A DNA stretch of 64,000 nt from Hoylesella pleuritidis JCM 14110 (lineage in GTDB: Bacteria; Bacteroidota; Bacteroidia; Bacteroidales; Bacteroidaceae): assembly GCF_000613725.1 (NCBI RefSeq), contig NZ_BAJN01000007.1, positions 1 through 64,000 of the forward strand, written 5' to 3'. Both the position numbers and the translations under genes were made by a program. Positions 25,217-46,400 of this stretch are shown here, one piece after another (positions within the stretch are counted from its first letter, which is position 1; every line of letters begins with the position of its first letter). Below the pieces are notes generated by a model. The model saw nothing but the letters and a program-made list of their open reading frames with translations, did not search any database and had not been told where the DNA came from.

Positions 25217-25813
25217 TTATCGCAGGCCTCCCATAAAAGACAACTTATTATTAACATCTATTTTAAAAGTTTTTGTCAATGTAAACTTTCTGATAAAAGT
25301 AATTTCTATATACAAATCCTTTGCATTCAACACCAGGTCCCTATTGCTATGTCTTTTCTTATAGTCACAACGAAATGGTTTTGGAATTAACCAATCAAAA
25401 TTAAGAGTTAGAAGCGACTCCAACTCTTCTTTGTAATCGGCGATGTGTTCGAAGAAATTCATCACCGCTCGCCTGAACTCCTCCTTCGTCCTGTAAAATC
25501 TCGTGTTGATGACTTTCTTCCTAAGCATTTTCCAAAGGCGTTCGATGAGGTTGAGGTTTGGTGAATACGGAGGTAGGAGTAGACCATCACAATTTCTCTT
25601 TTCTATATACATGTTAATATACAGAACAAATTCCATCAATGGCATAAATACATATATACATAAGACATAGCTGGATTCTCTTATTATCATAACTTTTGAT
25701 AAATCGAAACATTCCCTTCTATCAGCTTTTCTATGTGGTACACATTTAATGCCGTAGCTCTCGAATATATCAAGAGAGTCAACTGTTGTCAAGGATAGCC
25801 ACTCATTGAGCAA
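25217..25813 (-). pseudogene. IS630-type transposase remnant
   Basis: The middle of this 198-codon frame has the C-terminal signature of IS630/DDE_3 transposases: LPPYSPNLNLIERLWKML, including the third catalytic acidic residue. The segment before it is scrambled (a stretch of Met/Tyr/Ile-rich sequence replaces the second catalytic Asp region), and the last 50 or so residues look like read-through into flanking DNA. The N-terminal helix-turn-helix part is absent and no terminal inverted repeats can be defined. The spacer 25814-26097 shows nothing else. Confidence 0.75.
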
Positions 25814-26097: not shown

Positions 26098-26129
26098 TTT
26101 GCTAATTTATAGATTTATCACTATCTTTG
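26098..26129 (+). promoter_or_regulatory. Promoter of the ECF sigma gene
   Basis: TTTG (26098-26101), a 20-bp spacer and TATCTTTG (26122-26129) exactly match the Bacteroidota housekeeping consensus, 32 bp before the sigma ATG. It implies that the regulator pair is made constitutively by the primary sigma factor. Confidence 0.75.
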
Positions 26130-26161
26130 TAAATGTATTTTAGTTAAGAAAGAGCATAGTT

Positions 26162-26695
26162 ATGGGAGTATGTGATCGGGAACGCGCATTTGAAAAATTA
26201 TTCAAAGAAAATTATTCCCCATTATATTATAATGCCCTTTATATAGTGCATGATTCAGAAGTGGCCCGAGATGTGGTAAACGATGTCTTTACTCGTGCGT
26301 GGGAAGATTTCTCCTACTCACATAATCGATATGGCGCTTCTTATCTGCGGCAGTGTGTCTATAATCGCTGCCTGGACTATTTGAAACATTCCAAGGTAGA
26401 GTCGGCCTATGTAAAGTTCTTCCTCGATATGAGCCGGCACAGCATAGAATGGGATTCGGATAAGCAGGAGGAATACCTGGAATTGATAGATCGAGTGATG
26501 GAAAGAATGCCTGCACGTACACGTTTTGTAATAGATCAATGTTTTTATGAGGGACATACTTATAAGGAAGTTGCTTCTATCCTGGGAATTTCAGTCAGCG
26601 GCGTGAAGCAGCATGTGATGAAAGCTCTCAGGCTCTTACGGGAATCATTTTCTTTAGAATATGCTGAACGGAGAATAACCAAAAGACGCTTATAA
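26162..26695 (+). CDS. ECF RNA polymerase sigma factor
   Basis: 177 residues with sigma region 2 at about 10-80 (FEKLFKENYSPLYYNALY, VNDVFTRAWEDF) and region 4 at about 120-170 (GHTYKEVASILGISVSGVKQHVMKALRLL, a helix-turn-helix). Together with the following FecR gene and an STN-bearing SusC it forms a trans-envelope signalling set: substrate binding outside would free this sigma factor to raise transcription of the downstream genes. Confidence 0.9.
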   Translation: MGVCDRERAFEKLFKENYSPLYYNALYIVHDSEVARDVVNDVFTRAWEDFSYSHNRYGASYLRQCVYNRCLDYLKHSKVESAYVKFFLDMSRHSIEWDSDKQEEYLELIDRVMERMPARTRFVIDQCFYEGHTYKEVASILGISVSGVKQHVMKALRLLRESFSLEYAERRITKRRL

Positions 26696-26712
26696 TCGTT
26701 ATTATATTATAT

Positions 26713-27879
26713 ATGGATATAGAAATTGACTATTTACACCAGAATAAAGAGGCTGCCGAAAAGGATGAAGCAGTGGACAAGATAGGAAAATGGGATAAGT
26801 TGACAGACAAAGAAATCGACATGTTGCTGTCTGACGACGACTCAAAAGAGGTTTGTCAATTGCTATGGGATTATCATTGTGCAAGGTTTAGGAAAAACAG
26901 TCCCACTCCTGATGTTGCAAAAGTATGGAAGATTTTTTACGATACGAATCTTGCCCCTCGCCGTTTGAGGAGCCTGTATCGTAAAAGACTACTGTTTGTT
27001 GCAGCCACAGCTGTTGTCGCATTGGTATGGGGAGCCTATTCCTATTTTCAGGCTCGTCCAGCTGACAATCATCTGATGGCTTTCGTAGCAGAAGACCGGC
27101 CACAGAAAGTATTATTGGGTAAGGCCGAGGAACAGATGAAAGAAATAGAACTTGCCTATCACGATGAAGGAACAGTAATCAACAGCGAGCATGCCGATTT
27201 TTCGCATGCTTCGGCCAATGCAGCAGGATTGCGTATGCTGTCTACACCTCGCGGAAAAGCTTACAAGCTTATTCTTTCCGACGGCACGAGAGTCATGCTC
27301 AATGCCGAGAGCCAATTGATTTTTCCGGTTCATTTTTCAGGTGACATCAGACAGGTGAAATTGAAAGGCGAAGCCTATTTCAAGGTCAAAAAAAATGCCA
27401 AGCACCCTTTCATCGTAGAGACCGACAGGCTCCTGACCCGTGTTTTGGGAACGGAGTTCAACCTGAAAGCATATCCTGGGGCGGAGAATCATGTGACTCT
27501 GGTATCCGGTTCTGTAGCAATACGTAATAAGGCCAATAGCAGGGAAGTCGTTCTAAAGCCAGGTGAGGACGCCTTTTTGAGCGAGAACGAAAGATTCAAT
27601 GTGACCTGTATTGATACGGAGTATTACGTCCAGTGGAAAGACGGCTATTTCTACTTCGACAATCTGCCATTAGTAGACATCTTGAAAGAAATCGGCAGAT
27701 GGTATAATGTGAGCATAGAGATATGCGATAATTCGTTGATGAGTTATCGCCTGCACTTTATTGCCGATCGTAACGCCGGCATATCTCATGTCGTGAAAAA
27801 CCTGAACGCTTTCAGCTATCTTAAAGCAGAACTGAAAGGCAACAAAATCATTCTCTCCCCAAAAAGAGAAGAAAATTAA
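26713..27879 (+). CDS. FecR-type anti-sigma factor
   Basis: A 388-residue inner-membrane regulator. The cytosolic N-terminus (about 1-90) would bind the sigma factor; one membrane segment lies at about 96-116 (LLFVAATAVVALVWGAYSYF). The periplasmic FecR domain spans about 175-290 (TPRGKAYKLILSDGTRVMLN, GEAYFKVKKNAKHPFIVET), followed by a DUF4974 C-terminal domain that contacts the STN domain of the receptor. It starts 17 bp after the sigma stop. Confidence 0.9.
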   Translation: MDIEIDYLHQNKEAAEKDEAVDKIGKWDKLTDKEIDMLLSDDDSKEVCQLLWDYHCARFRKNSPTPDVAKVWKIFYDTNLAPRRLRSLYRKRLLFVAATAVVALVWGAYSYFQARPADNHLMAFVAEDRPQKVLLGKAEEQMKEIELAYHDEGTVINSEHADFSHASANAAGLRMLSTPRGKAYKLILSDGTRVMLNAESQLIFPVHFSGDIRQVKLKGEAYFKVKKNAKHPFIVETDRLLTRVLGTEFNLKAYPGAENHVTLVSGSVAIRNKANSREVVLKPGEDAFLSENERFNVTCIDTEYYVQWKDGYFYFDNLPLVDILKEIGRWYNVSIEICDNSLMSYRLHFIADRNAGISHVVKNLNAFSYLKAELKGNKIILSPKREEN

Positions 27880-27940
27880 TGCCCGAAATATAGTTAGGAT
27901 CGTTATATTTAATAAGTGATACCTTAAAAATATATCATTT

Positions 27941-30900
27941 ATGGAATATAAAATAAAAAAGTGGCAGATATGTAGTAGGTTTGCGTGCAAAAATTGTAGT
28001 GATATTGTTTGCTCTTTTGGGGAGTATCAGAGTAGTCGAGGCCCAATCGCTGACTGACAGAGTTACGGTAGAGTGCCATAACGAGCCTTTAGCCAGTGCT
28101 CTTAAAAAAGTAGAAAAGGCATCCAGATTCAAGGTATTGTTCACTTACGACGAAGTACAAGGATATACGGTCAGCATCCAAATCAAGAACAAGACCATAG
28201 AGAAAGCCCTCTCCCTTTTACTGCAAAACAAGCCTTTTAAGTATTCTGTAAATGGTAAATTCATCCATATCACGCAGACACATACCCAAGCAAGTTGTAT
28301 CTCCGATAATCAATCCCAGGATGTTTTTTCAGGAAATCAGCTTTCGGGGAGAAATAAGGTCGTGATCCAGGGAAAAGTCTTGTCCAAAACAATGAAAGAT
28401 CCCTTGCCGGGTGTCACTGTCTTTATCAAAGGAACCTCTGAGGGTGCACAAACTAATCTGGAAGGGATTTTCAGGATAGAAACCTCCACCAAGCATCCCG
28501 TTCTTCAATTTACTTATGCCGGAATGAAGCCCTTGACTATGATATGGCGTGGAGAAGAGATGCTTCGCGTGATGATGGAAGATGATGTTTCGCTCATTGA
28601 TGAGGTCGTAGTTACTGGGTATCAGCGTATTCGAAAAAGCGAAATGGTAGGTTCTGCAAATACAGTACAGATAGAAGATCTTTTCTATGACGGCCACAGG
28701 AGCATAGAACAAATGTTGCAGGGAAAACTATCAGGAACAAGTGTCCTGAATACCAGTGGATTGGTAGGTGCCACACAGCGTGTGCGTGTGCGTGGAACTT
28801 CTACCCTACTTGGCAATCAAGAACCGGTATGGGTAGTCGACGGTATCATTCAGGAAGATCCTCTCCCGTTCAAGACGAGAGACCTCGATGCTTTAGGCAA
28901 TATCACGCAAGATAATTTCGATATGATCAAGAATTTTGTTGGCAATTCTATTTCTTGGTTAAGTCCGAATGATATTAAGACGATTTCTGTATTAAAAGAT
29001 GCTTCGGCAACTGTGATGTATGGTGTAAAGGCTGCTAACGGTGTCATTGTCATTACGACCAAACAAGGTAAGAGCGGACGTGTTTCCATCAATTACAGCG
29101 GCGGATTCTCCATATCACCCCGTATACATTACAGTCAAATGAACTTGATGAACTCCTCGGAACGTATCGATGTGTCAAGCGAAATTTATCGGAGGGGACT
29201 TATCAGTGAGGCCAACCGCCCGCTCGAACGAATTGGGTATGAAGGACTTTTGGGACAGTATTTGCGTAAGGAGATCAATTATCAGCAATTTGCAGATGGG
29301 GTCAGGAAAGCACGTTCCAACAATACAGACTGGTTTAAGGAATTATTTCGCAATTCAATCAGCTATAATCATAGTGTGAGTATCAGTGGAGGTTCGGACA
29401 ACATAAATTATTATGCTTCGCTCAATGGCTCGTTCACCAATGGTATATCCAAAGGCAATGATTCCAAAAACTATAGCGCTTCGGTAAGCATCGATACCAA
29501 ATTCAGCAATAAAGTGAGCTTAAGTGTGCGCCTAAATGCGGCATCTCATGAGACCCACGGATTTTTTCGCGTAAACCCTTACTATTATGCCAGAACGATA
29601 AATCGGGCCATTCCTGCATACAACGATGACGGATCATTGTTTTATTATACCAAGACACAGGATACTAATCGCAGGAAATATAATATAATCAACGAACTTA
29701 ATTGCAGCGGAAATATCAATACGACAAACACGATGGCTCTTTCTGCCAACTTGAGATGGATGATCTTTGAAGGCTTGAGATTCGAAGGTCTGCTAGGTTA
29801 TAACACATCCAATGTGGTTGGAGAGTCGTATGCCGATGAGCAGAGTTTTTTTATTACCAATCTGCGGGGCTATGAATTTGGTCTTTATGGGCCAGGAGAT
29901 CTGGAATACAAGAAATCTCGCTTGCCACATGGAGGTGAATTGAACACGACAGAAAGCCGCAATAAGAATTACACTTTGCGTGCAACCTTGTCATACAATA
30001 AGATATTAAATAATGTCCATCGACTGAGTTTTATGGCTGGAGGTGAGATGCGCAGCAATAAGTATGATGGATACAATACTACCGTTTACGGTTATTTTCG
30101 CCAGCGCGGAAAATCGATTATGCTACCTCCGCGCCAAGTTGTAGACCCATTGAACAGCTCACATTTGATAGCCAATGATCTGTATGACAACTTTTCCAAC
30201 TCTATTATCGATCGTAAAATCAATAATGTAGGCATATTTGCTACCAGCATGTATAGTTATGACGAACGTTATATCCTCTCTGCCAGTATCCGTTCGGATG
30301 CATCCAATCGTTTCGGACAAGACGAACGAAACAGATTCCTGCCTGTATGGTCTGTTGGCGCCCGTTGGAATATCATCAACGAGCCTTGGATGAAAAATGT
30401 ATCTTGGATTAGCGACTTTAATGTGCGTGCCTCTTATGGGTGGCAGGGAAATGTAGTTGAAAACTATGGACCTGACTTGATTGCTGAATTGGGGCGTGGA
30501 CGTGATTTTATTGATACACGAACAGGGCGCTATATCTTGAAAATAAAGTCATTGCCTTATGATAATCTTCGCTGGGAAAAGACGAAAAGCATCAATCTCG
30601 GTATAGACTTCGGTGTCTTGAAAAACCGTATCGCTTTCAGTGCAGAGTATTACTTGAAACATACATCGGATATGATCGTATCTAAAGCTGTGCCCTATGA
30701 ATACGGTGTCTTGTTCATGCCTATCAACGGGGGCAGCATGACGAACCGAGGATTTGAGTTCACGGCAAGCATTACTCCTATCAGAACCAAAGATTGGGTG
30801 TGGAGTTTTTCGATGAACACTGCAAAGAATTTCAATGAGATACAATCCACCATAGCTGAGAATCAGAACTGGAGAGCAGCTGCGGGAGGATCCGTTCATA

Positions 30901-31583
30901 AGAAAGGTTATCCAGTAGGATCCTTCTGGGCATGGAATTTTGCGGGACTTGACCCTCAAGGCGGTTACCCTTTATTCAATATTCCTACAAAGGAGGAGGG
31001 AGCCAATCCGCTGGATGCCACAACATATATGACATATGCCGGAACGACGGAGCCTGATTTTTCCGGCGGTATGTCGACTGTGCTGCGTTGGAAGACATTG
31101 ACCTTATCAGCATCGTTTAGCATAGCTCTTGGAGGCAAGCGTTTTCTTACCGACCTATTCGATGAAGATTACCTGAACAATAGTACGCCGTCGGCCTATT
31201 CCAATTTGTCTAAAGACATGGTGAAGCGGTGGCAGAAACCTGGCGACGAATTGCATACCCAGATCCCTACTATCCCCCATCGTAATATACCATTGGTAGA
31301 CTTGCCGAACGGATCAACAGAGTATCGTCATCGAATGTACAATTATTCTACGGCACGGGTGGTAAATGCTTCTTTCTTACGATGCAACAATATCTCTTTG
31401 TCTTATACAGTACCTGCAAAGATCGTGAACAAGATGGCATTGAAAAACCTTTCGATAAATGGTTCTGTCAGCAATCCATTTATCGTCGTCAGCAAAGATT
31501 ATAATGGAGTAGACCCAGAAGTAGCTACCGGTTCTCAACCGATTACTCCGAGTTATAGTCTTACTTTGAATTTTAGTTTGTAA
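27941..31583 (+). CDS. SusC/RagA-type TonB-linked outer-membrane transporter with STN domain
   Basis: About 1,200 residues. Order: signal peptide, STN domain (LTDRVTVECHNEPLASALKK through FKYSVNGKFIHIT), carboxypeptidase-like beta-sandwich (IQGKVLSKTMKDPLPGVTVF), TonB box (DEVVVTGYQ), plug with the SusC motif GVKAANGVIVITTK, and a 22-strand barrel ending in LNFSL. The main frame opens with a TTG at 27981. An ATG at 27941 begins a longer signal sequence (MEYKIKKWQICSRFACK) that would join the main frame if the A5 run at 27989-27993 were A4. It forms an import complex with the SusD gene 17 bp downstream. Confidence 0.9.
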
Positions 31584-31600
31584 TTTTAATTGTGGCTTCA

Positions 31601-33099
31601 ATGAAAAATATTATATTCTTAGGCGCAGTATTGATAACCTTGTCGTTTATAAGTTGCGACGATTTCCTTACGGAAAGCAGTCAGGACGAAGTAAGACCGA
31701 ATACTACAACGGATTTGGAAGAACTTCTATTGGGTGAAGGATATGCTTCTCGTACACCTATTTTCCCCTATCTTGAGCTGTTGACGGATAATGTGGAGAG
31801 CAACTACTCCAATGCAACTGGGCAAGAGACAATGCTCCTTAACGGCGCTCCTGTGTTTACTTGGGCTGAAGATATGTATGAACAGCTGCAAAAGAATAAC
31901 GTGCCATGGTATAATTCATGGCAAAATCTCTATCATTGGATCAATGGCTGTAACGTGGTCATCGATCAGTTACCTTTGGTTACAGGTTCCAAACAGGCCA
32001 AAGAAAGACTAAAAGCCGAAGCTTTAGGCCTACGTTCTTTTTATTATTTTATGCTTGTTAATGCCTATGCAGTTCCCTATAACACAGAAGATTCTGGTGC
32101 TAACACGGCTCCTGGAATACCTCTCATCTTGAAATCTACGGTAAAAGATGAGTTCCCGAAGCGCAATAGTGTGGCCGAGGTATATGAACAAATCGTAAAG
32201 GATCTTCTAGAAGCACGAAATCTTTTTGCCAAGAACGGTGTGGTAAATCATAGTGTATATACTGTGTCACCATTGTTTATCGATATGTTGTTGGCACGTG
32301 TATATCTCTACGAGGGAAAGTGGGATGAAGTTATCAAGTATAGCTCTTCCGTCATAGAACAGAAGCCTGCTCTCTTGAAACTCCGCCAGTTTTACACGTA
32401 TGATGAATGGCAGGGTGTGGTAATGTATGATATAGCAAAAGGCGGAATATATAATAGTAGCAGCCGGAATTAATTTGGGGTTACTCGATTAACGGTGAAT
32501 ACTCAGCATATTTTATGGGGGTAAACTTGTATATCGACCCAGGAAAGCTGCCAGCCTTTACTGTAAGCAAGGAATTGGAAACTATGTATACCTCTAACGA
32601 TATTCGCCGTGAAGCATATTATAACGCTTATCTTGTTATGAATGGATTCATACCGGAGAAACATTTGTTGGTAGGTCGTAAGAGCGAAAATGTTGTTCAG
32701 AATTCTACAAAGGGTATGCGTGTCTCGGAAGCATATCTAAACAGAGCAGAGGCTTACGCTCGTAAATATCTGCTCACTAAAGATGAACAAATGCGTATGG
32801 CGGCGTTGAGCGACCTCAACATACTGCGTGAAGCACGATTTACCGAACCGTATGTGAAGCTGGAAATAATGAATGGCGATGAATTGTTGAAATCCTGCTT
32901 GGATGAGCGAAGACGCGAACTCAGTTTTGAAGATCATCGTTGGTTCGACTTGCGACGGCTGGGAATGCCTGCTATCCAACACACTTTCTCTATTACAAAT
33001 GGGCAAATACGGACTTACCATTTGGAAAAGGGAAGCAGCAAATATGTACTGCCCATTGCCCGAGAAGTAAAAGACCGTAATCCGGAATTGGAAAAATAA
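31601..33099 (+). CDS. SusD/RagB-type surface lipoprotein, frameshifted
   Basis: Substrate-binding lid of the SusC transporter, a TPR-based lipoprotein (lipobox LSFISCDDF). The frame is broken near 32466: restoring one G in CCGGAATT (CCGGGAATT) joins the N-terminal part (to SSSR) with ELIWGYSINGEYSAYF and the C-terminal SusD domain (VSEAYLNRAEAYARKY, LDERRRELSFEDHRWFDLRR), giving 499 residues. The upstream in-frame GTG at 31592 is less likely than the ATG at 31601. Confidence 0.88.
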
Positions 33100-33113
33100 A
33101 GATTAAATATCGT

Positions 33114-34001
33114 ATGAAACAAATGATTTTATGTGTGGGGTTGCTATTGACTTTGACAGCCTGTGGAAATGAAGACCCCATTAATCCTGATAACAATTCA
33201 GAAAAGATTGTAGGCCCGCATACATTACCCCAAGGCACACACCCATATGATAAAATTATTCAGGAAGTGTATAGCAAAACGAGTACATTCCTACTCTATA
33301 AGTTTACCGATACCGACTTTGCATGGGGAGTCACACAAAACTTTTTGTGGAGCAAGGATAGAATGAAAGACGAAGGCTATCTTTACGAATTGCCGGACGA
33401 GAGATATGTAGGGAAGCAGGTGGAATTGTTGGAAACACAGTTTTTAAATTTATTCCCGACAGAGTTCTTGAAAAAACATCTGCCCTTGCGTATTCTACTT
33501 TGCGGAAAGCTCTATTATCTTGAAGGCGGTTATACAGAAATGCCTGCAGAAACAGATTATAAGCGCATCAATGCCTTTGAAGGATACGAATACTTTGCAG
33601 TAAATTGGGGAAATGGCGAACTGTCACAGATAACCAAAGAACAGAAAGACCAATTCAGAAAAGATATGTGTCTTCTCTTTCTCCGCCGCATCTACCCCTA
33701 CATAAATAAAGGCACCACCCGTGAAGTTATTCCTGAAGCCTTTATTTCAGTGTCTGCTTATGGTCCAAAAGCAGATGGTTCTTTGAAAGAAGGATTCTTG
33801 GATGCAAGCCATAAAAGTAGTGAACGTGAAGACTGGTTCGACTATTTGCAGACAATCGTATCTACTCCGTTGACAAAACTTGAGGCCTCGGATGGTATTC
33901 TGACCCATGAGTTGGTTAGGCGGAAGTATGATATCGTAATCCGATATTTCAAAGAACAATTCAATGTAGACCTACAAAATATTGGCAATATGAGTGAGTG
34001 A
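33114..34001 (+). CDS. Mx1-type metallopeptidase-like lipoprotein lacking HExxH
   Basis: A 295-residue lipoprotein (lipobox LTLTACGNE). Its position after SusD and its layout resemble the SusCD-associated zinc metallohydrolase lipoproteins of Bacteroidota (Mx1-type): a short N-terminal linker, about 110 residues of alpha/beta sequence, and the C-terminal RRKYDIVIRYFKEQFNVDLQ that ends those proteins. Where they carry HExxHxxH, this protein reads RKDMCLLFLRRIYPYINK, with no HExxH anywhere. It is therefore probably a non-catalytic, peptide-binding relative. The family link rests on memory of the pattern. Confidence 0.7.
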   Translation: MKQMILCVGLLLTLTACGNEDPINPDNNSEKIVGPHTLPQGTHPYDKIIQEVYSKTSTFLLYKFTDTDFAWGVTQNFLWSKDRMKDEGYLYELPDERYVGKQVELLETQFLNLFPTEFLKKHLPLRILLCGKLYYLEGGYTEMPAETDYKRINAFEGYEYFAVNWGNGELSQITKEQKDQFRKDMCLLFLRRIYPYINKGTTREVIPEAFISVSAYGPKADGSLKEGFLDASHKSSEREDWFDYLQTIVSTPLTKLEASDGILTHELVRRKYDIVIRYFKEQFNVDLQNIGNMSE

Positions 34002-34072
34002 ACCAAAACAGAAAACAAAAGAAGAATAAATAAATATAAAAGGGAATCCGATCAGATTTTCAAGATAAAACT

Positions 34073-35785
34073 ATGAAATATATGAAAGTAAAGAACACAA
34101 TTACGTCGGCCGTATTTTTGTTGCTTGCATCTTCTATGCTACAGGCTACGACTGCACAGGAATACAAACAGCGTGACCTCGACTGGTATAACCTGTCTCC
34201 TGCTACGGATACAATCTATGGGGTTAGTGCGAACGAAGCCTACAAGTTACTGAAAGGACGCAAAGCTAAACGTACCATCGTAGCCCTCATCGGCTCTGGG
34301 CTGGATGTGAAACACACCGATTTGAGGGGAAATATGTGGGAAAATCAAAGAGAGAAAGCCAACGGGCGTGATGATGATGGCAACGGGCTGATAGATGATA
34401 TCAATGGTTGGAACTTTTTAGGAAATAAGAAAAAGGAAAGTACCGTCCGTTCGATGAACTTTACTTTAAATCAAGGTGACCGAGAATATTTCAGATTGAA
34501 GGAGAAATATGCCGATTATGTATCCGACGGTAAGCGGTTTTATAAGTTCTTTGGTGACGAAATGGTGCAAGTAGAGGCACCTCAGGACATAAACGAATAC
34601 AAGTATTATCGTGATACAATCGTGTATGAGTCTCCCCTTGCTTCGCGTTATGCGGGTATATTGGCAGCAAAAATCGTACGCCATTATTCCAAGATATTCG
34701 ACGAAAGACTTCGTAAACGTTACCCTGATCAAGAGATAACCCAAAAAGAGTTTGAAACGCTTTATGATAAAAACGCTCCTAAAGATTCGTTATCGGATAT
34801 GTCTTTTATGATATTAGCTTACAGTTTTCCTGTTGCTAAAACGGAATCATGGAAAAAGATATATGACGTAGAAATGCAAGGTACGCCCATCCGACAAGCT
34901 CAGCAGGAGTATGAAATATATCTTAAAGCTAACGGCAACGACTACCGCAATGAAATAATAGGCGATGATCCGAATGATATCCATGATAACTGCTATGGAA
35001 ATGGGAATCTATTGACAGAAGATGCCAACATCGGAACAATGGAAGCTGGCATTATTGCTGGAGTGAGGAATAATCGGATCGGTATCGACGGTATTTGCAA
35101 CGAAGCGCTTATTATGCCCTTGCGTGCTTCTACCGCAGGCGACCCCTACCTTAAAGATATTGCGTTGGCCATAAAGTATGCAGTTGACCATGAAGCTAAA
35201 ATCATCGTTCTTCCTTCACAAAATACCCTTTATCCGGCTATTGAGCGGAAATGGATAGAAGATGCTTTGCTTTATGCAGAACAAAAAGACGCACTTGTAA
35301 TAGCACCCGTCACCGAGAGTTCTCAAGATATGGCACATACCTTATATTATCCTAACCGTTTTATGATACCAGAACATGAGCTTACAAACCTGATGATTGT
35401 AGCACCCAGTGATAAGGAAGGACGACCTTCTCTACGTGCGAATTTTGGTCGGAAGGAATTGGACATACATGCCCCAGGAAAAGAAATCTATACTGCTGGA
35501 GTGGGAAATACTTATGGATTGGCTACTGGAACAGGTATGGCTGCAGCATCATTGGCAGGAGTAGCTGCTTTAGTAAGAGCTTATTTCCCTACAATGAAAG
35601 CTGCTGAAGTGCGTCGGTTGCTCAATACAACCGCAACCCAAATGGATGATATGGAAGTGGAAAAAGCAATGATCGTAAACGAGCGTAAGGTGCAAGACCT
35701 TTTCTTTTATTCGGATATCTGTCTTTCGGGAGGTATCGTCAATGCAGCCAACGCCGTAAAAGAAGCCATCAAGCAGACAAAATAA
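34073..35785 (+). CDS. Subtilisin-fold (S8) pseudoprotease, exported
   Basis: 570 residues with a signal peptide (to about residue 29). The subtilase scaffold is clear: VALIGSGLDVKHTDLRGNMW, the Ca-loop-like DDDGNGLIDDINGWNF, NIGTMEAGIIAG and TGTGMAAASLAGVAALV. Each catalytic position is changed: Asp to Gly in IGSG (usually IDSG), His to Ile in NIGT (usually HGT), Ser to Gly in GTGMAA (usually GTSMAA). The oxyanion Asn region is also altered (APVTESS). An insertion of about 220 residues separates the first two motifs, as in intact Bacteroidota relatives. It cannot hydrolyse peptides by the usual mechanism; a binding or chaperone role is inferred. Confidence 0.85.
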   Translation: MKYMKVKNTITSAVFLLLASSMLQATTAQEYKQRDLDWYNLSPATDTIYGVSANEAYKLLKGRKAKRTIVALIGSGLDVKHTDLRGNMWENQREKANGRDDDGNGLIDDINGWNFLGNKKKESTVRSMNFTLNQGDREYFRLKEKYADYVSDGKRFYKFFGDEMVQVEAPQDINEYKYYRDTIVYESPLASRYAGILAAKIVRHYSKIFDERLRKRYPDQEITQKEFETLYDKNAPKDSLSDMSFMILAYSFPVAKTESWKKIYDVEMQGTPIRQAQQEYEIYLKANGNDYRNEIIGDDPNDIHDNCYGNGNLLTEDANIGTMEAGIIAGVRNNRIGIDGICNEALIMPLRASTAGDPYLKDIALAIKYAVDHEAKIIVLPSQNTLYPAIERKWIEDALLYAEQKDALVIAPVTESSQDMAHTLYYPNRFMIPEHELTNLMIVAPSDKEGRPSLRANFGRKELDIHAPGKEIYTAGVGNTYGLATGTGMAAASLAGVAALVRAYFPTMKAAEVRRLLNTTATQMDDMEVEKAMIVNERKVQDLFFYSDICLSGGIVNAANAVKEAIKQTK

Positions 35786-35851
35786 GAGAGAATTACGGAC
35801 TGACAGGCCTGAAGTCTTTGACTGCAAAGTAAAGATCTAAGCATTCAGAAT

Positions 35852-37015
35852 ATGAAAAATCATAACTATATTCTCTCCGGTTTCTTGCTATTACTGCCAT
35901 TGCGGATCACCGCACAGGAGTTTACCGCTAAACGGTACGTCGACACGATACGATACGAAATAAAATATGGACGTATCATAATTCCAGTTACGGTCAATCA
36001 AATGCAATGCAAATACATTTTGGATACCGGAGGACAGACAGCTACCATTTGGGAAGAGGCAAAGACAATGGGAGGAAAGCTGACCGGAGCTAATAAAGTA
36101 ACGGCAGACATGAACGGTAAAGCCAACATGTATTCGATGGGAAAACTGCCCAAAGTAAAGATTGGCAACCATCTGATACAGCCAGAACTCACTACTATTG
36201 CTTTGCCCAACATCAAAGGCTTTCGAGATTTAGGAGTGGTCGGCATCTTGGGAGGAGATGCTTTCAAAGATGTGGTGATGTCTTTAGTAAGTTCAAGCCG
36301 TGAAATCCATATTCATTATCCATATCGTCCGAAAGGCTTGAAACTGAATGACGGAATCCCACTGGCTGATTCCGAAACATGGCAAGTAAACTTTCCCTTG
36401 TCATTTTCAGGTACACCCGTGCAAGTCATGTTTGACACAGGTGTGCCCGAACTGCTGACGATGAATGAAAAGGATTATCTCTTATTGGCACAGATCTACG
36501 CAGCAACAGTCGTTCACAAAGGAAAGGGAACATTAGGTGCAGGACTTGAAGGACTGGCCGAACCTAAACATTTGAAGCAAGTTCGGTTAGATAAGTTTAC
36601 ATTAGGTGGCAAGTCTTTCAAAAATCCAACGTGTCTTGTAGCCTCTGATGTACCGACTATACTTGGTGCAGAGGTGCTGAGATACGGTATCGTAACGATC
36701 GATTATCCACGTGGAAGATTCTATTTCCAACCCTACAAACAATCTCCCGTAGACCTTTCAAAGGCAGCACCGATTTGGAGTGTGAGCATTCTCCCCGCTC
36801 GCGGAAAGTTTGAAATAGCTACCGTTTGGGAACCTCTTATAGACCGTGTCGATATAGGCGACGAGGTGATAGCCGTCAATGGAAAAGACATTACCCGTCT
36901 ACCTTTAAGCGAAATAGCTGTTTCCGATATCTTCGACCAGATCACTTCTTCCGAAGCTACGATTACAATTCGGCGTAAAAAGCGGAAATTCGATATTAAC
37001 ATTTATCGGCGTTAA
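35852..37015 (+). CDS. Retropepsin-like aspartyl protease with PDZ domain, exported
   Basis: 387 residues with a signal peptide (to about 22). Two retropepsin-like lobes each keep an aspartyl motif: YILDTGGQTATIW near residue 55 and VMFDTGVPELLTM near 193. A PDZ domain forms the C-terminus (about 315-387; VDIGDEVIAVNGKDI). It is the only protein of the secreted set in this locus that keeps complete catalytic motifs. It is followed 9 bp later by a paralogue with a different C-terminus. Confidence 0.83.
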   Translation: MKNHNYILSGFLLLLPLRITAQEFTAKRYVDTIRYEIKYGRIIIPVTVNQMQCKYILDTGGQTATIWEEAKTMGGKLTGANKVTADMNGKANMYSMGKLPKVKIGNHLIQPELTTIALPNIKGFRDLGVVGILGGDAFKDVVMSLVSSSREIHIHYPYRPKGLKLNDGIPLADSETWQVNFPLSFSGTPVQVMFDTGVPELLTMNEKDYLLLAQIYAATVVHKGKGTLGAGLEGLAEPKHLKQVRLDKFTLGGKSFKNPTCLVASDVPTILGAEVLRYGIVTIDYPRGRFYFQPYKQSPVDLSKAAPIWSVSILPARGKFEIATVWEPLIDRVDIGDEVIAVNGKDITRLPLSEIAVSDIFDQITSSEATITIRRKKRKFDINIYRR

Positions 37016-37024
37016 AATACTATT

Positions 37025-38173
37025 ATGCATATCCTCAACTCTTTTCTATTCTTATTTCTTCTTTTATTGTCGGCTCATTCAAGTCTGTTTGCCCAATCGG
37101 TCAACTCACTGCAAGAAACTTTCGACTACCAAGAATTAGCCGATGGCTCCATAGCCGTCACCTTACAAATGGATTCTCAGAATGCTTTGTTTGTATTAAG
37201 TGTTTCCAACAAAACAGCTCTGTTCAGCGAAACGTGCTCGAAAGAAGCTACGCCCGACATTCCTCATACCCTTGTTTTGGGGAAAAGCTTATATGCCGAC
37301 AGACGAATTTTCCCATATGTAAAACGACCATCAAGCTTCCAACCATATAAGATTGTCGGAATCTTAGGTCTCGATATGTTGCGGAATGTAATTTTGACAA
37401 TAGATTCCAGACTTCGGAAACTGACCTTTTCCAGTCCTTACAGACCTGATTTCATAAAATTATCCAACCGGATCAGGTTACAGACGGAACCCGAAGAGGA
37501 AGTGAGGATACCTCTTTCTATTAACGGTAAGAATTTCTCTTTACCCGTTTTACTTCATCTTCCTTCGCTTCTTTATCTAACTCCCAATGACCGAAAAAGC
37601 ATCGAAAGCACAGATTCTTGCACGGTACGCATTGCCAATACCACGATTCAGGGCGTAGCATTCAAGTCGGATCAGCCAGCCCGATCATATTTGGGGCACA
37701 ACCTATTGCATTATGGACTGCTTTCGATAGACTTTACCAAGTCGGCTGTTTATTTTCAGCCATTCGACGAAAATCCCGTCTCTTACAGCTCATCTGCCAA
37801 AAAACAACTGCTTACTTTGAGCGGAAAAGTAGCGGAGATAGGCCGGACCTATTTTTTAGATCATATTTGGGAATACACTACCCATCGTGAATTTGTCTAT
37901 AAAGATACAATTCCTGCTGTGATAGATTTTTGGGCTACCTGGTGTATTCCCTGCAAACGGCTCTCTCCCTTGCTCAACCAGTTAGCAGAAAAGTATAAGG
38001 GAAAGATTCGATTCTTCAAAGTCAATTACGATACAGAACAACAATTATCCAAGGATTTGGGCATCGGAGCTTTACCTACTTTATATATGATTCCCGCAAA
38101 GGGATTGCCACAACAGGTCGTGGGACCTAAATCCGAAGAGCTGGAATTGATGATTCAAAAGATGATAAAATAA
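37025..38173 (+). CDS. Degenerate retropepsin fold fused to thioredoxin, exported
   Basis: 382 residues with a signal peptide (to about 24). Residues about 30-260 align with the preceding aspartyl protease (KIVGILGLDMLRNVILTID and HYGLLSIDFTKSAVYFQPF match its counterparts), but the first DTG region reads LFVLSVSNKTALF and the second VLLHLPSLLYLT, so no catalytic Asp remains. Residues about 285-382 are a thioredoxin domain with intact WCIPCK, so periplasmic disulfide exchange is likely. It looks like a tandem duplicate in which the PDZ was replaced by thioredoxin. It ends the locus. Confidence 0.85.
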   Translation: MHILNSFLFLFLLLLSAHSSLFAQSVNSLQETFDYQELADGSIAVTLQMDSQNALFVLSVSNKTALFSETCSKEATPDIPHTLVLGKSLYADRRIFPYVKRPSSFQPYKIVGILGLDMLRNVILTIDSRLRKLTFSSPYRPDFIKLSNRIRLQTEPEEEVRIPLSINGKNFSLPVLLHLPSLLYLTPNDRKSIESTDSCTVRIANTTIQGVAFKSDQPARSYLGHNLLHYGLLSIDFTKSAVYFQPFDENPVSYSSSAKKQLLTLSGKVAEIGRTYFLDHIWEYTTHREFVYKDTIPAVIDFWATWCIPCKRLSPLLNQLAEKYKGKIRFFKVNYDTEQQLSKDLGIGALPTLYMIPAKGLPQQVVGPKSEELELMIQKMIK

Positions 38174-38208: not shown

Positions 38209-38600
38209 TTATTGTATGAGGTGATAGCTTCCGCCAGCTATCGACTTGACAATACCTTCCATTTCCAGTTTGAAAAGAATTGGAGCAAGGCGATTGATAG
38301 CTCATCCCATTGCTTTCACAAAATCTTCTGCAAAAGTGATGAGAGCGGCTACATTATCGCGAATCATATTGTTGCAATCTTCGCTGTATTTCGTCCCACT
38401 GCACCCGGGAATGCAAAAACGTCGTGGTTGCAGTCGCTTGACAGCCTTGCAGTAATAAGTCCGCCGCTATACGCTACACTTTCCATAAGGATGCAGACGT
38501 CGCTCATATCGGCTACGATACGGTTTCGCCGCACGAAATTGGCTTTATCAGCATTGGTGCGGATGAAAATCGGTAAGCAATCCGCCACGTGAAACCATCT
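38209..38600 (-). pseudogene. dprA: C-terminal fragment of DNA-processing protein DprA
   Basis: Minus-strand reading gives the DprA core tail: FVRRNRIVADMSDVCILMES, GGLITARLSSD and VFAFPGAVG, then after a one-base shift near 38398 KYSEDCNNMIRDNVAALITF and the C-terminal winged-helix part ending GGSYHLIQ. A TGA replaces a Trp in AMGW. Only the last 130 or so residues remain; the N-terminal Rossmann part is missing. DprA loads RecA on incoming DNA, so this copy is dead; a full copy may exist elsewhere. Confidence 0.85.
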
Positions 38601-40344: not shown

Positions 40345-42128
40345 ATGGGGGAATTAGTGGATAAAAAATCTCTGTCAGCATAGATGGCCGGCGACTTTTT
40401 TCTTTCAAATCGCTCAAACTTCATCAGCCCATCAATGAGCATCATCGTTTCGAGTTGCTAATCGATCTCGAGACTGGAGGCAACCGGTACGTGCATAACC
40501 TTAAAGACAGTGCAGAATGGCTTGGCAAGAAGATATCAGTCCATATGAAAAAGCCTTTCCTCAGAGTTGTCACCAATGTAAGTCTGCACCGTAAAAACAG
40601 CGATTACGGATATATTCTCGTGTCGGGTTATTCTACAACTTATCTGTTGGAAACCGGTCGGAACTGTCATTCGTGGAATGACCGTAGCTTGGGCGACATC
40701 GTGAACGAGCTGTGCTCTAACGCCGGTGTGCGTGCTCAGGTCAATCCCGAACATACAGCATCTCTCGGCTATATCTGCCAGTACAACGAGTCGGACTTTA
40801 TGTTTATCCGTCGACTTGCTTGCCAGTATAATGAATGGCTCTACTATAATGGTACGGAGCTTGTCTTCGGGCGTCCGAAACGCCCCGCCCCCGTGAGTCT
40901 TGAGTTCGGTACGAGTCTTTCTTCTCTTGATATCGGGGTGCAGACCTTGGCCCGTCCGGCTAAGGTGTTCTCCTATCTTTCTATGAATGACCAACGTATC
41001 GCAGAGGATACACCGAACAAGCCTGCTGGACAGGATATGTTAGGGTACAAAGCCTTTCAGGCTTCGATGGAGATGTTCAAGAAACCTGCTTATCAGTATG
41101 CGCAGTCTCGTGTTCGCTATATGCAGGAGATGGAGATGTATGTTAGGAAGAAACAGGAGGCAGAGACAGCCGAATCTCACTATGTCATCGGTACGAGCGA
41201 GAATACGGAACTCACAGTCGGATGCGCCGTGAAGTTGACGAGTTCTTTCCTTGAACGACGACGCAGTATCACGAGCGAATCTCTGGGCGAGTTCATCATC
41301 ATTGAGATTTCCCATACTGTTGATGAGGCCAGCTACTACGTCAACAAATTCAAAGCCATTCCCGCGGTCACGCACACGCTCCCCGCTCCTGATATAGCTA
41401 TGCCGATGGCAGAAACTCAAATGGCACGGATCGTCAACAATACTGATCCTCGTGGTAAGGGGCGGGTACAAGTACAGATGAACTGGCAGACGGAGGGAAT
41501 GCATACGGACTGGATACGGGTGATGACGCCCGACGGCGGTAGTAGCGATGACGTAAAGAGCAACCGCGGTTTTGTTTTCATTCCCGAAGTGGGCGACCAG
41601 GTTTTGGTAGGTTTCCGCTACAACGATCCCAACAGGCCGTATGTGATGGGAAGCCTGTTTAATGGGACCACGGGTGGTGGCGGAGGACAAGGAAACAAGT
41701 GTAAAAGCATTACGACCAGAAGCGGGAGTACACTGATGTTGGATGATGCTTTGGGAAGTGTTCATCTCTCTGATCCTGGTAATTCAAAACTGGATATGGA
41801 CGGGTCCGGAAACGCAACGATAGATTCTGCGGAAACAATTAAACTCGTATGCGGGGAAGCATCGCTCGAACTCAGGAAAGACGGTACCATCCTCATCAAC
41901 GGAAAACAAATAGAAGTCGGTGCAACCGATAGTGTAGATATAGGTGTAGGGTCAGACGGAGATGCAAGTTCCGGAATAGGAATGACTAAAGAGGAATTGC
42001 AAGCGACTTCTCAGAAAATGGTCATCAACGGTTCCTCTTCCCTCAATGTAGGATCCAGTGACGGAACAACAACTCTTGCGGCAAAGGGCGATGTGACGGT
42101 CGGCGGTAGCAAAGTATCTTTAAATTGA
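40345..42128 (+). CDS. vgrG: Type VI secretion spike protein VgrG, frameshifted at the N-terminus
   Basis: The T6SS puncturing spike that carries effectors. The long frame covers the gp27-like base (LVSGYSTTYLLETGRNCHSW, YICQYNESDFMFIRRLACQY), the gp5 OB fold (ARIVNNTDPRGKGRVQVQMN, PEVGDQVLVGF) and the C-terminal beta-spike (SGNATIDSAETIKLV). The open frame extends upstream to IDGRRLFSFKSLKLHQPINE, and ATG 40345 (MGELVDKKSLSA) joins it if one base is restored near 40380. That gives 594 residues. No structural tss genes are in the window. Confidence 0.9.
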
Positions 42129-42131
42129 CGA

Positions 42132-43430
42132 ATGATGAATTCCGTAGAATTAGAGTTACTCAAAATCGACAAGCAATGGTATCGGCAGGTAAAAGAAAAT
42201 GCAGATGTCCGCTTGTTCGTCTGTTTAGGCGAGAAGCATACATTGAAACTGTTTGATGGCTATTTCAGAAGTCACGGGGCGGAGGAAGTCGAGACAAAAG
42301 ATTTGTTTCTTGTCCACTATCGCCCGTTTGAGGATGCTTTGCAATACGGACATACATTAATTGAAGATTTGCAATTGGCTTACGGTTTATGGAGAGAAGA
42401 GCATACCTCCTCTGTCGGGTGTTCGGCGTGGCTACCGGATGCCGACGACGGAAACACAACCTTTAAGACTGATGCTCGGTTTACGGCAAAATCATTGACA
42501 AGACTCTATGAAATTTTTCCCCCGTTGCAGGGACATAAGATCTTTATTCTCCTTTCTCCGCATACTATTAGCGACATATCTATCTTTGAAATTTGGTTGC
42601 AGGAATGGTGCGTCAGTTTACCGACAGACGACATTAAATTGATTTTGTCGGAACAGCCTGGGAGCAGACTGTTCCATCATCTTCCCGACGACAGAAATGA
42701 GTTTGAACTTGAAGAAACGGATATTGCCTCATTGATGAACAATGTCGCTGCTCAAACGGCTCAAGACCCCAACGATGACGAAAGTCGGCTGCAACAGCAA
42801 ATGCTTTTGGCCAACCTTCATTTCAGTAAAAGAGAATTCGACGCTGCCGATGTTGCTTTGGACAATGCCATCAGGATTGCGAAAAGACATGGGCACGTAG
42901 AAGCCGAGTGTACCGCTCATCTGCTCAAAGCCTATATCCTGCTCATTCAGGGAAAGACTGCTGAAGCTGACGACCGATTCCAATGTTTGCAGGAGCTTGC
43001 AGGTAAAAACTCCTTATTCGGTGCGCAAATGCATATGAATTACGGCGGTTTTCTGCTTTCGATCAGAAAAAAGGAACAAGCAGTCAAAGCATTCGAGCAA
43101 GCGGCCGAAATCGGAGAAAAGATTCAAAATCCGATGATAGAGATAGAATGCTATCGTATCATCGGCCAATTGAAAGATAATCTCCTGAATGACAAGGACG
43201 CCCTTTCCTATTATGAAAAATGTATCCTTATCGGCGATCGGCTCGATAATACCGAGTTTCGCCAAAGTTCTATAAGCTATGTGGCAGTGTTGCTACTGAA
43301 AAAGTATGGCAATACGGAAAAAGCTACTTTGCTCCGTGAGAAAATGGAACTGCGGCTCGGGAATGCTTGGGAGCAAAGCGTTAATATCCCCGATTTCGAT
43401 AGACAGAACCCTTATTCTTCCCTTTTATGA
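42132..43430 (+). CDS. TPR protein between VgrG and Rhs, likely effector adaptor
   Basis: 432 residues, no signal peptide. The N-terminal 210 residues form an unrecognised alpha/beta domain with several Trp and Asp/Glu clusters; residues about 225-400 are TPR-like helices (LLANLHFSKREFDAADVALD, GGFLLSIRKKEQAVKAFEQA). It sits 3 bp after vgrG and overlaps the rhs start as ATGA, which is the usual place for a chaperone or adaptor loading an Rhs effector on its VgrG. That role is inferred from position. Confidence 0.75.
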   Translation: MMNSVELELLKIDKQWYRQVKENADVRLFVCLGEKHTLKLFDGYFRSHGAEEVETKDLFLVHYRPFEDALQYGHTLIEDLQLAYGLWREEHTSSVGCSAWLPDADDGNTTFKTDARFTAKSLTRLYEIFPPLQGHKIFILLSPHTISDISIFEIWLQEWCVSLPTDDIKLILSEQPGSRLFHHLPDDRNEFELEETDIASLMNNVAAQTAQDPNDDESRLQQQMLLANLHFSKREFDAADVALDNAIRIAKRHGHVEAECTAHLLKAYILLIQGKTAEADDRFQCLQELAGKNSLFGAQMHMNYGGFLLSIRKKEQAVKAFEQAAEIGEKIQNPMIEIECYRIIGQLKDNLLNDKDALSYYEKCILIGDRLDNTEFRQSSISYVAVLLLKKYGNTEKATLLREKMELRLGNAWEQSVNIPDFDRQNPYSSLL

Positions 43431-46400
43431 AAGTCGTTTCTATAGTTCCTGATATTCATAGTACCGCCGTTGAACACGTCGGTAAGCACTTTGATTTGGT
43501 CCTTGGTGTTGATATACATTGGACAAAGTTGCCTTTTCCTCCTTTTCCATTGCCTCTTCCTCATCCTTTCATCGGTTTTATTTTCGATCCGATGGAATAT
43601 GTTCATTTTGAGATCTGCGTTCCTGGAATTTTGCAACAATTGTTGAAATTGCCCGCCAAGCTTCCTATGGGTGCTTCTGTCTATGTGCACGGTCGCATCA
43701 AGGCCACGACGACGACGACTGTTTTCGGTTTCGGTTGTACGATTAAGCCCAAGAATGCCGGTCCTTTGGCTGCGGCTTGTATGGTTGGCAAGGTAATCCC
43801 GATCAAACACATCACTGGCGGTCTTCCTTTTTACAAGATTTTCTTCGGCGATTTGGAAGGTCCTCACGACGGTGAGATTTACATCGGTTCCGATAGCGTT
43901 ATTCTCAACGGCAGCAAGTGCAGCGGTTCATCTGCCGGGCAGGTTCTTACTTGTTGGGGTGCCCCTTTCGGTCACCAGTATTTCCCCCCTGCTTGGCTTT
44001 CCCTTTATCAGCACATTCTGACGCTGTACGTACAGCTAAACTTCAAGCCTCCTGTTTTGGTTGGCGGTAGGTTCGTTCCGCACCAGTACAGCTTATCAGA
44101 CATCCTGATGCGTGCCGCCGCCGTTTTCCTGATGAAGGGTCTGACCATCCTGGCCAGAAAGGGTCTGACGAGATTCAACCACCTGTTGCAAGGCAAGTTC
44201 GGCAGTCGCAATCCCGTCTCCCGGGCCCTTTGCTTCTTCGGTCTCGAACCGGTTAACTTCGTCACCGGAGCAATGAACTTCTGCTGGGACGACTTCGAAC
44301 TTCTGGGCGACCACACCATCCGTTGGACCAGCGCTTGGCAGAGCGACATCTCCTATTGCGGTATTCTTGGCAACGGCGTTCTCTGCAACTATGATCTCTT
44401 CATCATCCCGCAGTTCGTAGACGGCGTTGCTGCCTATAACAATCCCTTGGAAAATCAGGTTTTCCCTATTCCCATCGTTGAGGTCGGTTCTCCTGAGGAA
44501 TACTACCGACCTCTTCACCTTTGGCAGCACCGGCCTGACGCCCGTACCTGGATTATCAGGACAGTCTCTGCAACTTACACCTACCGTGCTTTCCCCGACA
44601 GAGTATGGCCTTGTGTACCGTGCTGTTCGTATCGCTTATGCTGCCGGCGGTTTCATCGTTCTTGACTACGACCGCGATACCCACCTTCTCTCTACGCTTT
44701 CTGACCACGTTGGTCGGTTACTCGTCTTCGGTCAGGACACTGAGCGCGGTCTTATCCTCTCGGCTACGTATAAGTATGAGGATATCTCCGATCTTCTTGT
44801 TGTGTACGAATACGACGAGAGCCGGAACCTTCGGTCAGTTTCCGACCGCTTCGGCAAGAGCATCTCCTTTACCTATGATGAGCATAACCGGGTTGTTCGC
44901 CGTCAGAATCGCAACGGTATGAGCTACACTTGGTCGTACGACGACGCAGGCCGGGTTGTTCACACCTCTGGTGATGGTGGTGTTCAGGAAGGACGCATCA
45001 CCTACCTCGAAGGCTGTAACGAGGTGATCTATCCCGGTACTGGCGGTCGCGAACGCTACTACTACGATGAGCACGACCTTGTCTACAAGAAGGTGGATGC
45101 CTTAGGCGGTGAGACTTGGTACGGCTACAATGCCTGGCAGGAGCGCACGCTTGTTGGCACGGCCGAGGGAAAAGTCTCGAAACATGAGTACGATACCCGC
45201 GGCAACTTAGTAAAGTTTACGGCCTCTGACGGCTCCGAATATACCTCCGAATATGATGCCCATAACCGTCTGATGGCGCGTACCTCTCCCTTGGGCAACC
45301 GCGAAGAGTGGGGATATGATGCCGAGTTCGGTCGCCTTGTCTTTCGCAAGGAGTCCGACGGCACTGTTATTCGGTATACCTACGAAGCAGATAATGGACG
45401 CCCCTCGGCTATCGAATACGGCGATGGCCTTCGGGTAGAACTTCAATACAACGCCCTTGGTTTGTTGTCAGTCATCAAGGATAGCTTCGGTGTTCAGCAA
45501 ACCCGTACTTACGACGCTTATGGTCGCCCTCTGACATACAGCCACGGCGACGGGACTCATACCCAGTGGCGTCGTGACCGCCTTGGTCGCGTCACCCGCT
45601 ATGCCGCCCCCGGACAGCGGGTGCTGCATATCACCTACGACGCTTACGACCTTCCTGTTGAATTGACAAGCGGCAACGAGTGCTGGAATCTGGAATACAC
45701 AGCTCTTGGCAGCCTTCTTAGTCAGACTCGCCGTACGCGCAGCCTTCGTAAGGTCAGCTCTGTGCACTACACTTACGATGCCTACGACCGGCTGCGTAGC
45801 GTTGAGAACGAGCTCGGCGAACGGTACCTCTTCGGGCGCGACCTCAATGGTTCGGTGATTCTTGAAAAGGGTTTCGATGGTTCGGAACGTCGCTATGACC
45901 GGGACCTCGACGGTACTGTCATTAAGACACACCTTCCCGACGGCACGATCGTACACCACCAGCACGACCAGGCAGGCCGTCTGACCTACAACCGCTACGC
46001 CGACGGCAGCTGGGAGGCGTGGGAGTACGACAAGGGTGGGCTTCTTACCAAGGCTTATAATGCTGACAGCGTGACGGAGTTCGTGCACAATGCCATAGGA
46101 CAGGTTGTGAAGGAAACGCAGGACGGCCAGAGCGTTGAGCACGTTTACGACGCCCGCTCTCGACTCGCCCGTACGATTAGCGGACTGGGCGCTGACCTTG
46201 GCTACGGCTATGATTTGATGGGGCTTTCCGACAGCATAACAGCCCGCTCCTCAGGTTCTCATCGTCCCTGGGAAGTCCGTATAGAACGCGACCGCCTTGG
46301 CCGCGAGACCCATCGGAGAATGACAGGCGGTGTAGAAAGCGCATATTTCTATGATACTGTCGGTCGCCCTTGTCGACAACGAGTGATGCGCGGTGAGCAT

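Follow-up and report, generated by a model that had tools for sequence, protein, structure and literature searches.

A SusCD locus of Hoylesella pleuritidis and other Bacteroidales combines an outer membrane importer with protease folds that lack catalytic residues

Results

Gene content of the locus

We analyzed a 64,000-nucleotide stretch of the Hoylesella pleuritidis JCM 14110 genome (contig NZ_BAJN01000007.1, positions 1 to 64,000; here referred to as the window) and, within it, a SusCD import locus at 26162-38173. A sequence-only reading made earlier had described this locus as a sigma factor, a FecR protein, an STN-bearing SusC, a SusD, and four exported proteins on one strand. Matches of the window proteins to Pfam and NCBIfam bore out its content, order, and coordinates, with all genes on the (+) strand. 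The first gene encodes an extracytoplasmic function (ECF) sigma factor (26162..26695; TIGR02985, 127.6 bits against a cutoff of 126.4), followed by a FecR anti-sigma factor carrying PF04773 and FecR_C (PF16344) (26713..27879) and by a SusC/RagA TonB-dependent transporter with an STN domain (27981..31583; TIGR04056, 686 bits, cutoff 368; STN, 31.9 bits, cutoff 28.4). SusD adjoins the TIGR04056 barrel, completing a SusC/SusD importer, but is split in the window assembly into an N-terminal lipoprotein fragment (31592..32473; PF14322) and a C-terminal fragment in another frame (32515..33099; PF07980). The four further genes encode a zincin-fold lipoprotein without HExxH (33114..34001; PF15890, 26.6 bits against a cutoff of 25.6), a pseudosubtilase of the S8 fold with a signal peptide (34073..35785; PF00082, 88 bits), a two-lobed aspartyl protease (AP; 35852..37015; PF13650 in two stretches), and a pseudo-aspartyl-protease domain fused to a thioredoxin (AP-Trx; 37025..38173; PF00085, 77 bits). 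The earlier claim that three protease folds here have lost their catalytic residues also stood: Asp, His, Ser, and the oxyanion Asn are missing from the S8 protein, HExxH from the PF15890 protein, and DTG at both sites from the N-terminal half of AP-Trx. The AP is intact, with DTG at both sites, and the thioredoxin domain of AP-Trx carries WCIPC.

The earlier reading recognized SusC and SusD but missed a break in each of them in this assembly. A one-base deletion near 32464, outside any homopolymer, splits SusD, which is whole (498-503 amino acids) in five close relatives. The SusC ATG at 27941, which aligns with the start in relatives, is one base out of frame in an A-run, and the sole in-frame start is a TTG at 27981 (start region compared with three relatives). 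The compared relatives are intact at both the SusC start and the SusD break. The RHS gene downstream is apparently split as well, into overlapping frames at 43427-44665 and 44427-47738, which makes assembly error a plausible cause of the SusC and SusD breaks. Given the split SusD, the copy of the locus in this genome may nevertheless be nonfunctional.

The gene set recurs across Bacteroidales

We found 18 distinct loci of this kind in all, in Prevotella, Segatella, Hoylesella, Bacteroides, Butyricimonas, metagenome-assembled genomes (MAGs), and other Bacteroidales, a recurrence of the gene set that, judged by sequence, is far beyond chance. The genome samples were drawn from larger groups. A full-length relative of AP-Trx was present, among the matches listed, in 6 of the 299 genomes of the genus sample, the other listed matches being thioredoxin domains alone, and all six genomes carry SusC-SusD-zincin-S8-AP-AP-Trx. 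Thirty loci came from a scan of named genomes: 13 with a dead S8, 9 with an active-type S8 (L065-L073), and 8 weak ones that were left out (L074-L081). The 13 come from Segatella baroniae, Prevotella illustrans, Prevotella sp. BV3P1, Hoylesella buccalis, a Prevotellaceae MAG (SUG2085), two Butyricimonas, Bacteroides congonensis, four more Prevotellaceae/Prevotella MAGs, and one Rikenellaceae MAG; four of them are genomes G317, G012, G070, and G215 of the genus sample and were counted once. Searches across the order brought in G366, G404, and G522, whose three families all differ from that of the window and which may coincide with named-genome loci; the weak matches G356, G362, and G050 stand outside the counts. 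Scored with a profile of the dead S8, 4 of the 393 genomes in the order sample reached 769.7-902.6 bits (next best, 368.5), and in the phylum sample (395 genomes) the window's own genome alone scored that high (next best, 380 bits). Scoring was limited to three first-look candidates per genome in the order and phylum samples and to six in the AP-Trx search of the genus sample, so that a dead S8 or an AP-Trx may have been missed.

The sequence-only reading had treated the genes as a set that should be conserved together along with its catalytic losses, and both expectations held. The PF15890-type protein, the S8 protein, and the AP occur together in 18/18 loci, SusD in 16, and AP-Trx in 14, and no locus had its catalytic residues restored in the S8 or the zincin-fold protein. 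One locus scored as lacking SusD (L063) ends at a contig edge, and the other (L101) has no SusCD in the 5 kb upstream. Two loci without AP-Trx (L060 and L062) lie on contigs that end 0.6-0.75 kb past the AP; L061, another, encodes a separate thioredoxin-family protein downstream of the AP. Extra thioredoxin-like proteins are found in the Butyricimonas, B. congonensis, L100, and L101 loci; those of B. congonensis and Butyricimonas synergistica are whole loci. L101 itself is a zincin-thioredoxin-S8-AP-AP-Trx set, with a recombinase-like gene (identified by eye) upstream and an M16 protease after it.

The pseudosubtilase is a single conserved clade

In the window S8 protein, all four residues of an active S8 subtilase are replaced: the Asp74 position is Gly, His320 is Ile, the oxyanion Asn415 is Glu, and Ser488 is Gly. 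Across the 18 loci, the catalytic columns hold no Asp (0/18, all Gly), no His (0/18), and no Ser (0/18); Asn is found in one, with Glu or Asp at this oxyanion position in the other 17. Each of the four residues is kept in 64/64 active-type rows, all of which lie outside the dead clade, and S8 proteins outside this clade from two genome searches kept them in 29/29 and 25/25 cases inspected. We placed the 18 dead and 64 active-type rows in one tree by a quick maximum-likelihood method with a midpoint root (82 rows; L024 and L147, among the 64, are the same locus, and pieces shorter than 440 amino acids were left out). The 18 dead rows make up one side of a single branch with a support of 100 in the SH-like approximate likelihood ratio test (SH-aLRT). 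Because they form one clade with this support, a single origin of the catalytic loss fits, and the sequences indicate that the dead S8 is one old clade and not the outcome of strain decay.

Several observations suggest that the protein has been maintained. In the comparison of the window with genome G146, the ratio of nonsynonymous to synonymous substitution (dN/dS) was 0.05 for S8, 0.06 for the zincin-fold protein, 0.07 for AP, 0.16 for AP-Trx, and 0.04 for SusC; synonymous sites are near saturation in this pair (proportion of synonymous differences, 0.55-0.72), and the ratios are rough. A less saturated pair, L054-L056, gave 0.06 for S8, 0.13 for AP, 0.14 for AP-Trx, and 0.38 for the zincin-fold protein. 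These values indicate purifying selection on the dead subtilase and the zincin-fold protein, and in the comparison with G146 the dead subtilase matches the intact AP. Median identity among seven lineage representatives was 41% for the dead S8, 39% for SusC, 37% for SusD, 32% for both AP and AP-Trx, and 23% for the zincin-fold protein, which puts the dead S8 on par with SusC and above the intact AP. Distance correlations (r of 0.91-1.00) draw in part on near-identical loci and on common ancestry, and we did not use them as proof.

A structural model of the dead S8 (predicted local distance difference test score [pLDDT], 86) matched the whole subtilase fold of 3vv3 (Z of 41.6, 314 residues, 2.3 Å); having the fold does not by itself show function. 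The window S8 shares its domain plan, at 28-37% identity, with active Bacteroidota S8 subtilases that have a similarly long Asp-His spacer, and like active S8 subtilases it retains, around residue 100, a DxDxNG-type loop. Another SusCD lineage, found in Prevotella and relatives (L022, L025, L068-L071), carries an S8 protein with an intact triad, usually accompanied by a secreted protein of ~750 amino acids; the six active S8 proteins beside it form their own clade among the labeled tree rows.

The zincin-fold lipoprotein lacks HExxH

The PF15890-type protein lacks HExxH in 18/18 loci, and the window protein scores 25.5 bits against TIGR04549, well under the cutoff of 75 for that family. Its model (pLDDT, 76.5) matched 4l7a (Z of 14.0, 215 residues, 4.3 Å); the next row had a Z of 7.4, and the Foldseek/VIA rows after 4l7a (Z of ≤7.4) were not used. 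We considered HELVR at residue 265 as a decayed HExxH and rejected it: it aligns with a C-terminal stretch of 4l7a (chain 193-253), and the HHEFAH of 4l7a lies near 142, well before that stretch. On the model, the window equivalent of the 4l7a metal site is probably helix 175-192.

SusCD loci of the TIGR04549/PF15890 type, of which 4l7a is the solved member, share the SusC-SusD-PF15890 order and the zincin fold with the window locus. Unlike the window protein, their members mostly keep HExxH: it was present in 29/35 relatives read, these being the 30 best returned loci among 48 rows plus five lower-scoring full-length ones. The members without HExxH are those five and L188, the count going from 29/30 to 29/35 when the five were added. 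The six without HExxH, listed as L198 and L200-L204, constitute a second dead group, 6/6 of them beside SusD and SusC; all are from Prevotella-genus genomes, are 43-98% identical to one another, and score above the TIGR04549 cutoff, and one is encoded in the window's own genome (G000:C37:64859-65746). No match to the window S8, AP, or AP-Trx was found at an E value of 1e-3 in 11 TIGR04549 loci (five with HExxH and six without). Judging from these sequences, other SusCD pairs can also have a dead zincin next to them, whereas the dead subtilase was seen only in loci of the window type.

The aspartyl protease and AP-Trx

The window AP has DTG at 58-60 and 195-197, and both lobes carry DTG in all 18 loci, with one instance of DSG (alignment of 18 rows from 15 loci; the remaining three loci were read separately). 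By its motifs the AP is predicted to be a two-lobed clan AA aspartyl protease; its C terminus gave a very weak PDZ-like match (13 bits against 27). The N-terminal half of AP-Trx is a pseudo-AP by similarity to the AP, and the AP-Trx of one relative matches the window AP with an E value of 5e-13. DTG is gone at both sites in 14/14 AP-Trx proteins, and the window protein has lost both Asp residues. The thioredoxin half keeps WCxPC, together with the cis-Pro of thioredoxins, in 14/14. The window genome also encodes a DsbD_TM protein, a possible electron donor to the thioredoxin domain. The S8 and AP genes adjoin in 18/18 loci, separated by gaps of <100 bases or overlapping slightly.

Signaling genes and predicted cellular location

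The sigma factor, FecR with FecR_C, and the STN domain on the transporter are adjacent in the window, the arrangement of cell-surface signaling systems. We could judge the linkage of STN to sigma/FecR in 12 of the 18 loci. An STN-like SusC match came with upstream sigma/FecR genes in 8/8 (the window, L048, L052, L053, L057, L058, L059, and L100); STN is just under the Pfam cutoff in L058 and L100, and SusC is split in L057. The other four (L054, L055, L062, and L064) have neither STN nor adjacent sigma/FecR in 4/4, L062 with only 0.75 kb upstream. This linkage fits a working STN-FecR-sigma relay and supports the earlier proposal that the locus has its own ECF sigma/FecR control.

We read signal sequences by eye. 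In the window, a lipobox Cys marks SusD and the zincin-fold protein, and S8, AP, and AP-Trx have an ordinary signal peptide. Across the loci, the zincin-fold protein mostly shows a lipobox-like Cys with acidic residues after it (a simple pattern missed 3/18), and an ordinary signal peptide is the rule for S8, AP, and AP-Trx, with a few called starts unclear, for example that of the L064 S8. No secretion-tail family in Pfam or NCBIfam was matched by the window proteins. Because only SusD and the zincin-fold protein carry lipoprotein signals, S8, AP, and AP-Trx probably act in the periplasm, after import. The claim of four exported proteins is thus kept as to export but divides into two compartments, that of the zincin-fold lipoprotein and that of the three proteins with signal peptides. 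The accompanying idea of surface capture by dead proteases fits the zincin-fold lipoprotein at most, as the subtilase, AP, and AP-Trx look periplasmic.

Locus boundaries and surroundings

The locus is flanked by a DDE transposase remnant upstream (25217-25813, minus strand) and a dprA remnant (38215-38561) on the other side. When 22-42 kb of the window was compared with the two whole-locus relatives, DNA similarity covered 26103-38173 in G146 and 26126-38161 in Prevotella illustrans, and the sole further similarity outside those ends was a 287-base dprA piece. Because similarity to both relatives ends at its borders, the locus is a discrete unit that occurs in different surroundings. Pieces of the dprA remnant are 63-74% identical to the dprA adjoining the orthologous locus of Segatella baroniae, against 59% for the intact dprA of the window genome (C35), a pattern that is possibly a trace of horizontal transfer. 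The ends of the locus look mosaic: the sigma gene is 93% identical to its G146 ortholog and 83% to those of G012 and G317, FecR is 75% identical to all three, and AP-Trx (37025-38173) shows lower synonymous divergence to G146 than the inner genes do. Farther downstream, 40455-47738 holds a VgrG-like gene and then TPR and RHS genes. A promoter and terminator scan returned 35 promoter-like sites against 31.3 expected and 6 terminator-like sites against 11.1, and nothing in it was usable.

Discussion

SusCD import, sigma/FecR/STN control, and the link of PF15890 to SusCD are already known. The sequence-only reading knew of no system of this composition, and we likewise found no description of the dead-subtilase clade or of the locus composition among the matches listed in the literature searched, many subscription journals lying outside it.

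To our knowledge, many SusCD pairs have no known ligand. The closest solved relatives of the window SusC are 8ypu/8ypt, then the levan SusC (254 bits), RagA (222 bits), and BT2264 (137 bits); the sequence of the transporter proved uninformative as to its ligand. RagAB of Porphyromonas gingivalis and BT2263-BT2264 of Bacteroides thetaiotaomicron (Bt2261-64) have a SusC/SusD pair like that of the window and hold oligopeptides in their structures (PMC7782687, PMC11817032), although the window SusC is only distantly related to RagA and BT2264. In SusCD utilisomes (PMC7618045), surface lipoproteins bind substrate beside SusCD; there, SusCD is partnered by a glycoside hydrolase and a glycan-binding protein, whereas the partners in the window locus have protease folds. 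Peptides are the ligand best suggested by the accessory proteins together with the analogy to RagAB and BT2263-64.

Our preferred reading, which we put forward tentatively and rate a little short of an even chance, is that the locus encodes a SusCD importer induced by its ligand, most likely a polypeptide, and that two of its protease folds have been turned into permanent binding modules. Loss of the catalytic residues in these two proteins is old, and they have been retained ever since, probably as binding parts of a peptide-import device. The dead zincin-fold lipoprotein, at the cell surface by SusD, would capture a polypeptide, and SusCD would take it in. In the periplasm, the dead subtilase would serve as a docking subunit that holds the chain for the neighboring AP; AP-Trx would reduce disulfides and present the chain, and the AP would do the cutting. 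Ligand-bound SusC would signal via STN and FecR to the sigma factor, switching on the locus. A bolder version, which we consider somewhat unlikely, makes this a two-compartment polypeptide importer found across Bacteroidales, with a noncutting, protease-fold peptide reader on each side of the outer membrane. The dead zincin would select at the surface, and the periplasmic dead subtilase would receive the chain and feed the AP, helped by the fused reductase. The acidic residue at the oxyanion Asn position of 17/18 dead subtilases would be part of a new binding site, and the second dead group would suggest that zincin-fold lipoproteins serving as binders are a wider SusCD habit.

Pseudoenzymes often regulate an active paralog. 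The dead subtilase and the pseudo-AP of AP-Trx might accordingly regulate or chaperone the AP, holding it inactive, folding it, or aiming it at one target, and not bind the ligand at all. The pseudosubtilase and AP genes are neighbors in every locus, AP and pseudo-AP are homologous, and subtilase pseudoproteases with regulatory roles exist, as described for CspC of Clostridioides difficile (PMC6636752). CspC and CspA resemble the window S8 as a dead subtilase fold kept for another job; their context, spore germination, is unlike that of the window locus, and the window S8 scores 30 bits against a CspC_non_triad cutoff of 675. This arrangement would leave the dead zincin-fold lipoprotein and the SusCD link unexplained, and we regard it as rather unlikely.

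ECF/FecR/STN control is classic for iron uptake, although the same type of control serves glycans in Bacteroides. A further alternative is iron piracy, in which the ligand would be a protein or peptide loaded with a metal or cofactor, not a food peptide, and the periplasmic set would strip the carrier. A Riemerella cluster of SusC, RagB, and a "substrate import-associated zinc metallohydrolase" (B739_0101 to 0103) stands in a table of genes changed under iron limitation, with values of 3.1 to 3.8 (PMC5429918), but that metallohydrolase bears the name of the canonical family and is known here by name alone; we think this alternative distinctly improbable. The prospect that this is an ordinary glycan or glycopeptide SusCD locus, its accessory proteins having an unrelated housekeeping use, strikes us as slight: the levan SusC is a closer relative of the window SusC than RagA is, and a glycoside hydrolase family 20 (GH20) gene follows the B. 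congonensis locus, yet no carbohydrate-active enzyme family was matched by the window locus proteins in Pfam or NCBIfam, and the protease folds are the constant part of the locus. Finally, that the catalytic losses are accidents of one genome through strain decay or sequencing error is hardly credible and was rejected for the catalytic residues, since, despite the one-base indels that split SusD and shift the SusC start in the window assembly, the losses are common to 18 loci, form one clade, and lie in genes under purifying selection.

Several points weigh against the polypeptide-import reading. The SusD gene is broken in the window assembly, and one of the 18 loci (L101) has no adjoining SusCD. 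AP-Trx was not found in L061 or L063, and six AP-Trx relatives retain both Asp residues in altered motifs, so that its protease domain may not be dead in every locus. The placement of proteins at the surface and in the periplasm depends on signal sequences judged by eye, and the SusC/SusD sequence is neutral on the ligand, neither favoring nor excluding peptides. The zincin loss, moreover, need not belong to this system, as dead zincins adjoin SusCD pairs without the S8/AP set elsewhere; that second group neither adds to nor subtracts from the case for peptides, and its odds are therefore unchanged.

How Bacteroidales of the gut and mouth import peptides is poorly mapped. A conserved locus in which two unrelated protease folds have, on our reading, exchanged catalysis for binding offers a marker for candidate non-glycan SusCD systems. 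The dead subtilases are also a clean example of pseudoproteases in bacteria that form one clade of apparently single origin, and the locus supplies a defined protein set whose ligand can be sought directly.

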